Shown here: positions 3,614-38,245 of the stretch, in pieces
Layout: every line of letters begins with the position of its first letter
Position numbering within the stretch: the first letter of the stretch is position 1
NCBI RefSeq assembly: GCF_001263175.1
Contig: NZ_CP012332.1
Span: forward strand, 490,001 to 554,000
Direction of reading: 5' to 3'
Source: Vulgatibacter incomptus
GTDB taxonomy: Bacteria; Myxococcota; Myxococcia; Myxococcales; Vulgatibacteraceae
Length of the DNA: 64,000 nucleotides
Made by a program: the position numbers and the translations under genes
Notes under the pieces: model-generated
Told to the model about the DNA's origin: nothing
Databases searched by the model: none
What the model saw: only the letters and a program-made list of their open reading frames with translations

Positions 3614-6600
3614 TCAGCGCAGGCTCTTGCCGAACTCTGCGAGCCTCGCCGCCGCGGTCTCGAGCTTTGCGCGCGGGATCGAGAAGACCGCGCGGATCCG
3701 GTCTGGCGCCGAGCACCACGCGCCGTTGTTGAGGACCACGTGCGTGTGCTCGTAGACGAGCCGGGCGAGGTTCTCTGGCGTCAGGGTGACGCCGCCGACG
3801 CGCTTGCCGAGCCAATCCGTCATCAGCGGCGCGAGGAAGAGGCCGCCTGCCTCGCCCCCGTCCCCTCCCGCGTCGAGCGGCAGCGCCGACGCGAGGAGCG
3901 CGCGCTTCTCGGCCAGCTCGGCGCGCATCGCGTCCAGGTGGCGGCGTAGCGCCCTCTTTCGCTCCGGGTGGAGGAGCTTGCCGGAGGGGTTCCGCGCGAA
4001 GGCGCCGTAGAGATGCGACGCGGCACGGGCCGAGGCGAGGGGGAGGCCTCCGAGCTGGGACGCCATCACCCGGGAGACCAGCTCCCGGTCGCGCGAGGCG
4101 AGCCAGCCGACGCGCAGGCCCCCGGCGGCGAATTCCTTGGAGAGGCCGCCGAGGATCGAGGTGAGCGCCGTGACGCCGGGCACCGCCCTCTCGACCGAGA
4201 CGGGGCTGGCCACGGCCTCTGCCGCCGGGTGGGAGAGGTTCACCAGGCCGAAGATCTCGTCGGAGAAGATCCGGCAGCGGTGGCGCACCGCGAAGGAGGC
4301 GAGGGCGACCAGCTCCTCCCGCGAGAGGTAGGAGCCCGAAGGGTTGGACGGCTGCGAGATCACCAGCGCATCCGGCGGATCGACCCGGCCCTCGAGCACC
4401 CGGGAGAGGGGCGCGTACTCCACGTCGCAGCCGGCGGCGAGGAGGGTGGGCGGGAGGACGCCGTAGCACGGCGTGACCGCGAGGATCCGGGGCGTGCGGC
4501 TGAGGCTCTCGCGGAGGGCCACAGCGAGGTCGTGGATGAGCGGCCACACGCCTTGGGCGATCGCGACCTCGGCGCTCTCGAACGCCACGCCGCGCGTCTC
4601 GAGGAGGAACGCGGCCACGGCCTCCCGCAGCCCGTGGTGCTCGCGATCGCGCCGTGGTGCGGCGCAGGCAGCGAGGAGCCCCTCGACCAGGGGGTGGGGC
4701 ACGGCGGACTCGTTCTCGCCGTAGTCGAGCCGGATGAGCTCGGGATCGTCCTCTCGGAAGATCTTCGGCGCGAAGGCGGGGAACGCGGCCAGCGCCTCCA
4801 TGCGTGCGGAGCGGGGGAGCGGCACCGCCGGCGCCGCCCTCGCGGGCGCGGGGCTGGGAGGCTCGAACGAGATCCGGAAGGAGAGGAGGTCGGCGAAGGT
4901 CTTCTCGTAGAACCACTGGACCGGCGTCGAGATCCGCGAGTACGTCGCCTCCGCCGCGATCTCGAGATCCGCGTGGAGCCGCTCCGGAACCGGCAGCAGG
5001 AGCGTGAGCTCGAAGTCCGGGTAGACCGCGTTCTTCACCAGGCCGTAGAGCACCACCAGGTTGGGCCGGTGCGGCTCCCGGGCGAGGAACTCGAAGAGGG
5101 TGCGGGGCTCCACGCCGCTTGTGATCGTGAAGAACGCGCTCTCGTCGATGATCACCAGGATCCCGCGGGAGGCGGCCTCGTCCGCGATCTCCCGGAGCGC
5201 GGAGAGGTTGCTGCGCTCGCCGGGCTCGACCCCGAGGATCGCCACCTTCACGTCGAAGGCGCCGAGGAGCCGCTTCACCTCGCGCAACGTGTCGTTGGTG
5301 ACGATGGCGTCCACGCCCGCCTTCTCGAGGGCGCGGGAGTAGGTGGCGCGGAGGTTCCGGGTGATCAGGACGCCGTCGCCGGGATCGCAGGTGGCGAGGA
5401 GCAGCGAGTAGACGGTCTGCTCCCGCTCCGGCCCCACGAAGATCTCGCCCTCTCCCAGGCGGAGGCCGAAGAATCGCTCGAGGTAGCGGGCGATGGAGAC
5501 GCGGAACGCGGCGTCCCCCGCCTCGTGGGCGTAGGGGATCACCGGGTCGGCGGCGAGGCGCCTCGCCAGCGAAGCCACGAAGTCCAGCTGTTCCTGGGAG
5601 GCGTCGCTGAGGTCCAGATCGCCGAGCAGGCTGCCGCTGCCGGCCTCCCTCAGGGCGCGGCGAACGGCCAGCGTCTCCCGTGGCAGCGCGAGCTCGGCCT
5701 GCCAGACGGCGACCTCGTGCCAGATCGGGTTGCCGCTGGCGAGCCAGCCGAGGGCGGTCCTGGCTCGGATGGGTTCGGGGCTGTGCTGCTCCAGGTAGAA
5801 TTCGAACTCACGCTTGGTGTTTTCCTCCAGCGTGACCAGCGGCCGGATGTCGGTGTCGGCCGCCTGCCGGACCCGCCTGGCGACCAGGACGCTGGTGCGG
5901 AAGCCCCGGCGCGAGAACATCCGCTCGATGATCGCCCGGCCAGGCCTCCCCGCGAGGTTCAGGAGCAGCCTGCCACCGGGCGCGAGGCGCTCCGGGCACT
6001 CGTCGAGGAGCCGCGCGATCAGCCCGAGGCCGAAGTGATCCTCGTAGACGTTCTGGATCGCGCAGTAGTTCGACAGATCGTAGAGGGCCTGCTCCTCCTC
6101 CGGGGGCGCCCCGCCGAGGTCGTCGGCACGCAGGACCTGCGGGATGCAGCCCACCACGAAGTCCCAGCGCTCCTCGGCGGGGAGGTCGACGAGGAGATCG
6201 CTGGTGCCGAAGCGGAGTCGGGCGGCCTGCTCCGGGCTGCAGTTCAGCCAGGCGTTGCAGGTGGCGACGATCCGCGAGTGGGGGTTGAGGTCGACGCCGT
6301 GGATCTCCGCAAGCCCGGTGAACTTGGAGAGGGCGATCGGGATCCAGCCGGAGCCGGTGCCGACCTCGACCATCTTCTTGCCAGCGAGCTCGTCGGCCGG
6401 CACGTCCAGGAGGCCTTCGAGGAAGGTGAACGCCCAGTCCTCGGGAGCGAAGATCGAGGGGAGGAGGAGGAGCTCGAGGTGCTCGCGTTCGCCGCCGACG
6501 GCGGCGTCGATCTCCGCGAGCCGCAGGGGAGCGCCTTCGGGCTTCCCCCGTGCCTCCGCTGCCAGGAGGCGGAGCTCGTCGAGCGCGGACGCGCGGGCGG

Positions 6601-6676
6601 CCGGATCGGAGAGCGCGACGCTCAGGCGCGCGAGCTGCTCGAGTGCTTCCTTGGGGTGGGAGGGGTAGGTGTTCAT
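3614..6676 (-). CDS. Methionine S-methyltransferase, plant-type (methyltransferase plus aminotransferase-like domains)
   Basis: This 1020-residue protein matches plant methionine S-methyltransferase (EC 2.1.1.12), which makes S-methylmethionine from methionine and S-adenosylmethionine. SAM-binding motif I (VEVGTGSGWI) is at residues 103-112. Family-typical stretches follow: GVDLNPHSR, VVGCIPQVL, ALYDLSNYC and FGLGLIARLL. From about residue 320 come two PLP-aminotransferase-fold segments; the second has the classic lysine context GLSKEFAAGGLRVGW. Plant enzymes share this architecture at roughly 1,090 residues, whereas the short bacterial MmtN enzymes carry the methyltransferase part only. The gene stands alone, converging on the activator gene, with no methionine or DMSP genes beside it. 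Family membership is strong by remembered motifs; the cellular role (methyl storage, osmoprotection or DMSP precursor) is inference. Confidence 0.88.
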   Translation of the reverse strand: MNTYPSHPKEALEQLARLSVALSDPAARASALDELRLLAAEARGKPEGAPLRLAEIDAAVGGEREHLELLLLPSIFAPEDWAFTFLEGLLDVPADELAGKKMVEVGTGSGWIPIALSKFTGLAEIHGVDLNPHSRIVATCNAWLNCSPEQAARLRFGTSDLLVDLPAEERWDFVVGCIPQVLRADDLGGAPPEEEQALYDLSNYCAIQNVYEDHFGLGLIARLLDECPERLAPGGRLLLNLAGRPGRAIIERMFSRRGFRTSVLVARRVRQAADTDIRPLVTLEENTKREFEFYLEQHSPEPIRARTALGWLASGNPIWHEVAVWQAELALPRETLAVRRALREAGSGSLLGDLDLSDASQEQLDFVASLARRLAADPVIPYAHEAGDAAFRVSIARYLERFFGLRLGEGEIFVGPEREQTVYSLLLATCDPGDGVLITRNLRATYSRALEKAGVDAIVTNDTLREVKRLLGAFDVKVAILGVEPGERSNLSALREIADEAASRGILVIIDESAFFTITSGVEPRTLFEFLAREPHRPNLVVLYGLVKNAVYPDFELTLLLPVPERLHADLEIAAEATYSRISTPVQWFYEKTFADLLSFRISFEPPSPAPARAAPAVPLPRSARMEALAAFPAFAPKIFREDDPELIRLDYGENESAVPHPLVEGLLAACAAPRRDREHHGLREAVAAFLLETRGVAFESAEVAIAQGVWPLIHDLAVALRESLSRTPRILAVTPCYGVLPPTLLAAGCDVEYAPLSRVLEGRVDPPDALVISQPSNPSGSYLSREELVALASFAVRHRCRIFSDEIFGLVNLSHPAAEAVASPVSVERAVPGVTALTSILGGLSKEFAAGGLRVGWLASRDRELVSRVMASQLGGLPLASARAASHLYGAFARNPSGKLLHPERKRALRRHLDAMRAELAEKRALLASALPLDAGGDGGEAGGLFLAPLMTDWLGKRVGGVTLTPENLARLVYEHTHVVLNNGAWCSAPDRIRAVFSIPRAKLETAAARLAEFGKSLR

Positions 6677-6810: not shown

Positions 6811-7044
6811 CTACTTCGCCGGCGTCGCGGCCTTCTCGGCCTTGTCGGTCTTCTCGGCCTTCATCTTCTCGACCTTGTGGAGCTTCTTCTGCTTCTTGTC
6901 GGCCTTCGTTTTCGCGTCGGTCTGGCCGTTGTTGGCAGCAACGGCCACGGGCTTCACCGAGCTCGGCGCGGGGGCGGCCGCGAGAGCGGAAGTTGCGGAG
7001 AAGACAAAGAGAGACATCGCAGCCAGAGCGAGCAGCTTCTTCAT
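6811..7044 (-). CDS. Small Lys-rich exported protein, unknown function
   Basis: About 77 residues if started at the MKKLLALAAM methionine (base 7044); an in-frame ATG six codons upstream (7059) is also possible. The N-terminus is a typical Sec signal peptide with probable cleavage after SALA. The mature part is short, with an Ala/Pro/Val segment followed by a strongly basic, coiled-coil-like tail of KADKKQKK and EKMKAEKTDKAEK units. Low-complexity Lys/Ala-rich secreted proteins like this are common in Myxococcota and have no assigned function. A strong hairpin follows the gene. The signal peptide and the downstream hairpin support a real gene; no function is proposed. Confidence 0.75.
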   Translation of the reverse strand: MKKLLALAAMSLFVFSATSALAAAPAPSSVKPVAVAANNGQTDAKTKADKKQKKLHKVEKMKAEKTDKAEKAATPAK

Positions 7045-7225
7045 TTGCATGACCTGCACTCGTAGGGAGAGACGTCAGCCTCGGTCGCTCGAAGGAGCAG
7101 AATCCGAGACGGCGACCGGCGCCGGAGCCCATCAGCGCCTGCGCCAAATCAACCCGGAGGTCGGACTTTCATTCCAGCTCGTCGCTCGATGGCTGGAATT
7201 CCGAGCCGCGACGCCTACTTGCCGA

Positions 7226-9232
7226 TCATCGAGCCACGACGTCCGGCGATCCGTCGAGGTTCCCGTGTCGGAGGAAGACGGTCCTTCGCACGTCCGTGGA
7301 GCCGGACGACCCGGGACGCGGGCTCCGGTCCTCCAGGAGGGCCACCTCGAAGGCGACGATCCGGTCGGCGGGCTTTCCGGTCCGCTTGTGATGTTCCAGG
7401 ATCCAACCTTCGAGGGTGTGGTGGTAGGCGGGGTTGTCCTTGATGCGGGTGGAGTAGTCGAACCAGAACTGGTTCATCCCCTGGAGATCCGGCACCTCGC
7501 GGAGCGCTGGACCGTCGTAGCCAAATGCGGCGAAGTTGAAGGGGTCGATCCGGCGTCCGTCCACGGTCAGGGCGTCGACGACCACCATCCAATCCTTGTC
7601 CGGAGCGTTGGGCGCGAACATCGACCATCCCTGGCCGAAGCGGCCATAGGCCACCAGCGCGCGGAAGACCGTCGGCTGTGGAAGCTTGAGCCAGCGGGGA
7701 ATCGACGAATTCTCCACGAGGATCTGGCTGATCACCGACAGGAGGAAGACCAGGACGAGGGCCTCGCGTGCCCATCCGAGGCCCGAACGAAGGGCGATGG
7801 CGAAGGGCGCCGGAGGCGTGGCCTGCGCCGAACTTCCGAAGGTCGCCCGCGGGAGGCCACAGGCGGCGAGTCCGAGACCCGTCGAGATCCGGACGCGGTT
7901 CGACGCGACGAGATCGTAGACGCGGTCCGCGAGCGCGCGGAGGCCGGGGGCAGAGAGGAGGACGGCGATCGGGAAGCCGCCCGGGATCGCGCGGAAGATC
8001 GACGCGAACGCGGCGGACCGCGTGTGCTGGCGTCCCTGATCGTCGACCACGACCACGGTCCGCTCCACGAGCTCGGGCGTCACGCCGGGCGGGAAGAGCG
8101 AAGCATCCGCGTTGTCGACGAAGCGGAGCCGCCCCAGCCGATCCATCGCCGTGAGGAGCCTCGCCGTCTGGAAGCAGATTCCACAGGAGGCGTCGAAGAA
8201 GACCGTCCTCGGCCCGACTCGCTTGCGCAGGAAGCGCGAGGCAGCGTCCCAATCCGCGGCGGACAGGAGCAGCGGATAGAAGGCGCACATCGCCGGCGAG
8301 AAGAAGCCGACGTTCAGGAAGAGCGCGAACCCCATGTGCATCGCGGGGAGCGCGATCATCGCGACTCGCCTCGCCCAGGTCGTACCCCAGGGCGTGAGGA
8401 TCAATGCTGGAGCGGCCGCCTCGAGGGCGAGGGTCGACCAGGTCAGAGCCTTGCCCAACCACATGGGCAGGTGATCGCGGAGCTGGTAGCCCAGCCAGGT
8501 GACCATTCCGTCCCGCTGGAGCACGTAGTGGACGACCGAGCCCTCCATCCACGTATTGCCGCCCTTGTGGATCGCGTTGAAGAAGTAGATCACCGCGAGC
8601 TGCAGGAGGAGCCCGAAGGCGGCAAGCGAGACCACGGGCCGAACCGGGCTCGGGACCCCTTGGGCCAGATCCGCCGCGGTCGACGCAGGCCTCTCTCGAA
8701 GGGAGGCGAGGAGGGAATCGACGGAGAACCGCCGGCCCAGCGGGAGGAAGAGGGACCAGGCCGCGAGCAGGTTCATCGTCACGTCGCCGCCGTTGACGAG
8801 GATCACGCCGCGGCTGTGGAGGCTGATGGTGGCGATCAGGCTGAGCAGCTGGAAGAGGCGGGTCTTCCAGCCGATGAGCAGCCCCAGGAACGACAAGCCG
8901 CAGAGCAGGAAGCCGATCGCCGCCTCGGTCGGCGTCGAGGCAAGGAAGAAGACCGAGAAGATCCAGCGCGCCGCCGGCCGCCAGAGCTGCGTGTGGTTGG
9001 GGATGAGGCCGTCGTTCGAGTACCAGACCACCAGGTCCGGCAACCGGCGCAGGAGATCGCCCAGGAGCAAGGTGGCGAATCCGATCCGGAACAGCCCGAG
9101 GCTCCGCGGGTCCAGGCTGAACCAGGTGTCGCGCAACCGCGTCCCGATCGACGCCTTGTCCGATCGTGAACCCTCGACCGCCATCGGCGAAGCGTGTGAG
9201 ACGTTCTTGCTTGCCTTCATTCCGTTCCCCAA
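7226..9232 (-). CDS. HTTM-domain membrane protein fused to a thiol-disulfide oxidoreductase-like (DCC) domain
   Basis: A 668-residue polytopic membrane protein. The first half fits the HTTM family (horizontally transferred transmembrane domain, related to vitamin K-dependent gamma-carboxylase): it opens with the FRIGFATLLLGDLL segment, and many hydrophobic helices follow. At about residue 343 a DCC/DUF393-type domain begins (VFFDASCGIC, cysteines at about 349 and 352). A further membrane segment and a C-terminal soluble part with WSMFAPNAP and DWMVVVDAL follow, typical of bacterial HTTM proteins. Bacterial HTTM proteins have no established carboxylase activity. The CxxC suggests thiol redox chemistry, but this is inference. 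The gene diverges from the glycosyltransferase gene. Confidence 0.85.
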   Translation of the reverse strand: MGNGMKASKNVSHASPMAVEGSRSDKASIGTRLRDTWFSLDPRSLGLFRIGFATLLLGDLLRRLPDLVVWYSNDGLIPNHTQLWRPAARWIFSVFFLASTPTEAAIGFLLCGLSFLGLLIGWKTRLFQLLSLIATISLHSRGVILVNGGDVTMNLLAAWSLFLPLGRRFSVDSLLASLRERPASTAADLAQGVPSPVRPVVSLAAFGLLLQLAVIYFFNAIHKGGNTWMEGSVVHYVLQRDGMVTWLGYQLRDHLPMWLGKALTWSTLALEAAAPALILTPWGTTWARRVAMIALPAMHMGFALFLNVGFFSPAMCAFYPLLLSAADWDAASRFLRKRVGPRTVFFDASCGICFQTARLLTAMDRLGRLRFVDNADASLFPPGVTPELVERTVVVVDDQGRQHTRSAAFASIFRAIPGGFPIAVLLSAPGLRALADRVYDLVASNRVRISTGLGLAACGLPRATFGSSAQATPPAPFAIALRSGLGWAREALVLVFLLSVISQILVENSSIPRWLKLPQPTVFRALVAYGRFGQGWSMFAPNAPDKDWMVVVDALTVDGRRIDPFNFAAFGYDGPALREVPDLQGMNQFWFDYSTRIKDNPAYHHTLEGWILEHHKRTGKPADRIVAFEVALLEDRSPRPGSSGSTDVRRTVFLRHGNLDGSPDVVAR

Positions 9233-37713: not shown

Positions 37714-37841
37714 GCCAGTCGCAGGAGGGCGGGCGACGTGCTCGCGGGCTTCACGGCTGTCTCTGGCAGCCTGGGCCCGCGAGGCGGAATCGGAGGCGAG
37801 TGCCCGCCATTCTTGCTATGGAGAACCCGGCCTTCGCGGCC

Positions 37842-37882
37842 CCGGACGAGACGCGCCGTACCCGGTGAGGACAAGACGACGC
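37842..37882 (+). promoter_or_regulatory. Guanidine-III (ykkC-III) riboswitch
   Basis: The 41 nt from CCGGACGAG through GCGCCGTACCCGGT, AGGACAAGACG and CGC match, with only four or so differences and no length change, the guanidine-III aptamer that I recall from the Thermobifida fusca crystal structure. The pseudoknot-forming segments and the GACAAGACG core are intact. Ligand-bound aptamer is known to switch on guanidinium exporters and degradation genes. Downstream, a hairpin (37892-37900 with 37905-37913) abuts the ribosome site AGGGAG (37912-37917) of the exporter gene, suggesting control at translation initiation. Confidence 0.88.
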
Positions 37883-37924
37883 CAACCCGAGCTGCATCCG
37901 TACACGGGTGCAGGGAGTGTCGTC

Positions 37925-38245
37925 ATGTTCTACTGGATGTTGCTGATCGTCGCCGGCCTCCTCGAGACTGGCTGGGCCATCGGGCTCAAGTACACCGAGG
38001 GATTCACCAAGCTCGTACCCAGCATTCTCACTGGCACCGCGCTCCTGGCGAGCATGGGCCTGCTGGGCGTCGCCGTGAAGGGGCTGCCCATCGGCACGGC
38101 CTACGGCGTCTGGGTCGGGATCGGCGCGCTCGGAGTCGCGGTGCTCGGGATCGTCCTCCTGGGCGAGTCCGCGTCGCCGGCCCGGTTGTTCTTCCTCGGC
38201 CTGCTCCTCGTCTCGATCGTCGGCCTCAAGGTGACGGGTTCGTAG
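37925..38245 (+). CDS. gdx: Guanidinium exporter Gdx (SugE subfamily of SMR transporters)
   Basis: 106 residues with four membrane helices. The essential Glu is in helix 1 ([16 protein letters not shown]). The second and third helices carry the SugE-type [14 protein letters not shown] signature. The C-terminal helix ends GLKVTGS. SugE-subfamily proteins under guanidine riboswitches are Gdx antiporters that export guanidinium against protons (established in other bacteria). The riboswitch upstream makes Gdx rather than a multidrug role the best call. ATG 37925 follows AGGGAG; the in-frame extension upstream runs through the riboswitch. Confidence 0.95.

Follow-up and report, generated by a model that had tools for sequence, protein, structure and literature searches.

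A gene in the soil myxobacterium Vulgatibacter incomptus probably encodes a Group III (plant-type) methionine S-methyltransferase (MMT) that makes S-methylmethionine (SMM) and whose chain also contains a PLP-binding domain, which may act on this product. The 64,000-nucleotide stretch of DNA that was analysed (the window) contains the gene as a single 1020-aa open-reading frame on the minus strand, at 3614 to 6676 by ORF calling, and frame 1 of the plus strand contains a stop over the same interval. The start ATG at 6676 is supported by a conserved N-terminus, MxTYPxSPREAF, and chance is excluded for the reading frame because full-length orthologues with 65–67% identity, mostly from Myxococcaceae, span that family. 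The features of the gene and its upstream context are as follows.

3614 to 6676, minus strand: Group III (plant-type) methionine S-methyltransferase, 1020 aa (ORF, orthologues, conserved N-terminus)
5684 to 6676, minus strand: MmtN-like SAM methyltransferase domain, residues 1–331 (match to 7vvv, motifs, alignment)
4853 to 5683, minus strand: middle aminotransferase-fold domain, residues 332–608, short and divergent (profile match, model, alignment)
3617 to 4831, minus strand: C-terminal class I/II aminotransferase domain, residues about 616–1020 (Pfam, profile, Foldseek, alignment)
6811 to 7050, minus strand: small ORF rich in Lys, its N-terminus signal-peptide-like, lying between the HTTM/DCC1 and MMT genes (by eye; context, not part of the enzyme)
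7226 to 9232, minus strand: HTTM/DCC1-like membrane protein gene (context; also adjoins the MMT gene in a relative of the same family, genome G001)

In the protein, two domains of aminotransferase fold come after a methyltransferase of the MmtN/MMT type. Residues 76–331 match MmtN (7vvv, E=6.5e-12), the profile of residues 330–608 matches aspartate aminotransferase 1j32 (E=4.7e-8), and Pfam Aminotran_1_2 matches residues 680–1012 (E=6e-27). The C-terminal profile matches class I aminotransferases across the whole domain, including ACC synthase 1m4n (E=2.6e-17), and a Foldseek search with the AlphaFold2 model, which is confident (pLDDT 85, pTM 0.84), returned class I aminotransferases with TMt of 0.7–0.8 as well as ACC synthase. 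With a C-terminal aminotransferase region and a total size of about 115 kDa, the protein has the makeup of a Group III MMT, bearing out the preliminary description of a full-length plant-type MMT in a bacterium; the family stretches quoted there are also present, VVGCIPQV at residue 174 and LYDLSNYC at residue 198. Like Arabidopsis MMT1 (Q9LTB2), a plant Group III enzyme, it arranges three domains over about 1000 residues and carries the methyltransferase motifs. Proteins of this fold normally work as dimers whose subunits share their active sites, and the presence of two copies in a single chain therefore suggests an internal pseudo-dimer, in which the degenerate middle domain would pack against the C-terminal domain with its PLP site. 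The middle domain keeps GLVKN (Lys548) and Asp511 and has no NPxG motif. Its lysine was considered as a second active site and dropped as a conserved bacterial feature, as it is lost in two divergent relatives, G001 and G009.

In the window, the MMT gene is flanked by genes for a sigma-54 activator, the small Lys-rich ORF, and the HTTM/DCC1-like membrane protein, so the earlier remark that it stands alone was right for this stretch. By eye, a G+C-rich hairpin follows the small ORF and lies upstream of the MMT gene, suggesting that the latter has its own transcription. No operon partners are conserved beyond close relatives, with the neighbours varying among Myxococcus, Corallococcus, G011/G093, and others, and no SAM or other riboswitch was found at the gene with Rfam. 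Elsewhere in the window, an ordinary Guanidine-III riboswitch (Rfam RF01763, 56.8 bits) lies at 37824–37885 on the plus strand, followed by an ORF at 37865–38245 whose product, a small membrane protein, looks like guanidinium exporters.

Within the methyltransferase domain, the motifs GTGSGW (residue 106), GCIPQV (176), DLSNYC (200), FGLGL (215), and ADTD (273) were located together with Asp129, and DLSNYC and FGLGL are shared with the Arabidopsis MMT sequence. These motifs are intact in the 52 distinct bacterial sequences, except for G001, substitutions in G009, where Ser replaces Cys and a Gly lies within LSNY, and one truncated row. The domain is 32.5% identical to MmtN (Group I/II; 7vvv) over 246 aligned residues, and the GxGxG motif and the equivalents of MmtN Asp69 (Asp129) and Cys121 (Cys177) are conserved, while Ser101 and Leu102 have no secure placement. 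MmtN differs in having about 300 residues without aminotransferase domains, and its methionine-binding loop does not align; Glu127, Arg132, and Glu250 of MmtN fall opposite Arg or gaps in this poorly aligned loop, without secure equivalents, and the loop at 181–214 was modelled at pLDDT below 50 (AlphaFold2). From homology to MmtN and plant MMT, we infer that the domain makes SMM from SAM and methionine. It is improbable, and the least probable of the readings considered here, that the methyltransferase has an acceptor other than methionine and that the PLP domain acts on that other product. The unlike binding loop would fit such an acceptor, as would the best NCBIfam match of the PLP domain, the amino-acid cyclodehydratase GntC, which scored far under its cutoff; against it, the motifs are common to plant MMT, whose substrate is known, and bacteria containing Group III enzymes are reported to S-methylate methionine (PMC9135737).

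The C-terminal domain carries the signature of a PLP site, consisting of Asn778, Asp806, Lys847, Arg855, and Arg995, so that the Schiff-base Lys, pyridine Asp, Asn, and phosphate Arg of class I/II PLP aminotransferases are all present, with the usual PLP-contacting tyrosine (Tyr225) replaced by Phe809. In the alignment, Lys847, Asp806, and Arg855 are found in all 52 distinct bacterial MMT sequences, and Asn778 and Arg995 in 51 of the 52, the exception being G001. By this measure, the site is under strong constraint in the bacterial proteins, and bacterial MMT most likely binds PLP and acts on an amino acid. The fold and PLP-site residues are shared with ACC synthase and class I aminotransferases (1m4n, 1gd9), from which the Vulgatibacter domain differs in its identity of only about 20%, its fusion to a methyltransferase and a degenerate second copy, and its Phe at the Tyr225 position.

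Plants are represented in the comparison by a single Arabidopsis MMT sequence of 1071 residues, 986 of them aligned; identity is 35–39% over the methyltransferase domain but only about 20% over the aminotransferase domains. This sequence has Leu in place of Lys847, Ser in place of Asn778, and Lys in place of Arg855, with Asp and Arg retained at Asp806 and Arg995. The preliminary description had counted the PLP-lysine context among the likenesses to the plant enzyme; that context (GGLSKEF, residue 843) is indeed kept throughout the bacteria, but as a plant likeness it fails on the Leu of the Arabidopsis sequence. In a tree with this one plant row and without MmtN, the plant row sits on a very long branch and the deep branches are unresolved.

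MMT is present in 60 of the 147 genomes of the host class, distributed over 12 of 48 genera, with Myxococcus xanthus, Corallococcus, Pyxidicoccus, and Citreicoccus among the named carriers. A wider search of 195 genomes of the phylum added no carrier, and no MMT homologue was found in the plasmid collection. More distant relatives are found in the metagenome-assembled genome SZUA-336 (L067, 57% identity), G001 (45%), and G009 (41%). G001 belongs to the same family as the window genome and has the same gene neighbourhood. Its orthologue (L014, 9070–11991, minus strand) has an in-frame deletion from the GCIPQV to the FGLGL methyltransferase motifs and keeps the C-terminal Lys. This copy was set aside as a clear case of the PLP domain functioning on its own, given that its PLP site is altered too (Asn778 to Asp, Arg995 to His), and it may simply be decaying. 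A further record, L061 (BNCN01000002.1), is titled 'Comamonas sp. KCTC 72670', contains a typical Myxococcaceae MMT, and corresponds to G056, a genome grouped with the relatives of the window's host; the organism name looks wrong.

The host genome was searched for enzymes that use SMM. This genome, from the order of Myxococcaceae, consists of one contig with 4,350,553 bases (4.35 Mb) and is 100% complete. PF02574 (HMT, MetH) is absent from it, with 9 of 14 control genomes positive, and PF01717 (MetE) and PF02219 (MetF) are likewise absent, with control genomes positive for each. With no HMT, MetH, MetE, or MetF of known type in a complete genome, the host is a predicted methionine auxotroph, and on these profile searches the plant SMM cycle cannot run here with any known enzyme. 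Among the 60 MMT carriers, our count gave 47 with a MetH-sized PF02574 protein only, 3 with none, and 10 with a short one. These results bear on the reading that SMM is made for a plant-like SMM cycle, with the aminotransferase domains structural or regulatory. The architecture is that of plant MMT, which works with a homocysteine methyltransferase (PMC9135737). The missing PF02574/PF01717 partner in this genome, the 47 of 60 carriers with only the MetH-sized protein, and the invariant bacterial PLP site all speak against that reading, and we consider it quite unlikely, even though Arabidopsis MMT works without the C-terminal PLP lysine.

The other known fate of SMM is DMSP synthesis. PF02784, the family of the known SMM decarboxylases, has one member in the host genome, a clear SpeA arginine decarboxylase, so the PF02784 search yielded no SMM decarboxylase of the known type for DMSP synthesis; one of an unrelated type may still be encoded. 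The SMM decarboxylases known so far belong with the ornithine/diaminopimelate decarboxylases (PMC11464771). That MMT catalyses the first step of DMSP synthesis in the methylation pathway, as the preliminary description had raised, is conceivable, since Group I MmtN bacteria make DMSP by this route, one of four tested Group III strains made DMSP (PMC9135737), and the PLP domain could stand in for the missing decarboxylase, an SMM transaminase-decarboxylase activity having been named for higher plants (PMC5557254). The SpeA result and the absence of linked genes at the MMT loci, as also described for Group III (PMC9135737), weigh on the other side, leaving DMSP synthesis weakly supported and unlikely, if somewhat less so than the plant-like cycle. 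As neither known fate is supported, SMM may be exported, used by an enzyme of another kind, or acted on by the attached PLP domain. The host genome also encodes one protein of the cystathionine gamma-synthase/lyase type and another that resembles methionine gamma-lyase but scores under the cutoff.

In the preferred reading of a Group III SMM synthase with a fused PLP-binding domain, the N-terminal domain would transfer a methyl group from SAM to methionine to give SMM, and the C-terminal domain would bind PLP and act on an amino acid, most naturally SMM itself. The PLP reaction on SMM could be a transamination, a transamination-decarboxylation, or a gamma-elimination; PLP binding, catalysis on SMM, and the pseudo-dimer are more tentative parts of this proposal than SMM synthesis. 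ACC synthase, which the C-terminal domain matches in fold, can reportedly process SMM (Ko, Eliot and Kirsch 2004). A bolder version, which we hold to be doubtful though less so than DMSP synthesis, is a bifunctional bacterial MMT that makes SMM and turns it over at its own PLP site, to a keto acid, to DMSP-aldehyde, or to dimethyl sulfide and a C4 product, the plant version then being one with a dead PLP site and its product redirected to the SMM cycle.

Plant-like dual-domain MMTs (Group III) have been reported in some Deltaproteobacteria and Oligoflexia (Peng et al. 2022, citing earlier work; PMC9135737), and Myxococcaceae were classed in Deltaproteobacteria at the time of that paper. The Vulgatibacter protein thus joins an already known group, which it resembles by description in being plant-like, dual-domain, and unlinked to DMSP or methionine genes, and a bacterial plant-like MMT is not novel. 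The published Group III genes are unlinked to DMSP, NRPS, and methionine-cycling genes, and the function of the enzyme, and with it the role of SMM in these bacteria, was called difficult to predict (PMC9135737). In the literature searched, no mmtN report was found for Myxococcus, the S-methylmethionine search returned only a RiPP methyltransferase review, and we found no statement of what the aminotransferase-like half of the plant enzyme does. What is new here is that the PLP site is kept, and invariant, in the C-terminal domain of bacterial MMT and that known SMM-using enzymes are absent from a complete MMT-bearing genome. A predicted methionine auxotroph without known SMM reuse argues against the plant cycle in this organism, and the invariant PLP site provides a concrete hypothesis for the aminotransferase-like half of MMT, in a family whose gene is also present in Myxococcus xanthus, where deletion and metabolite measurement are possible.
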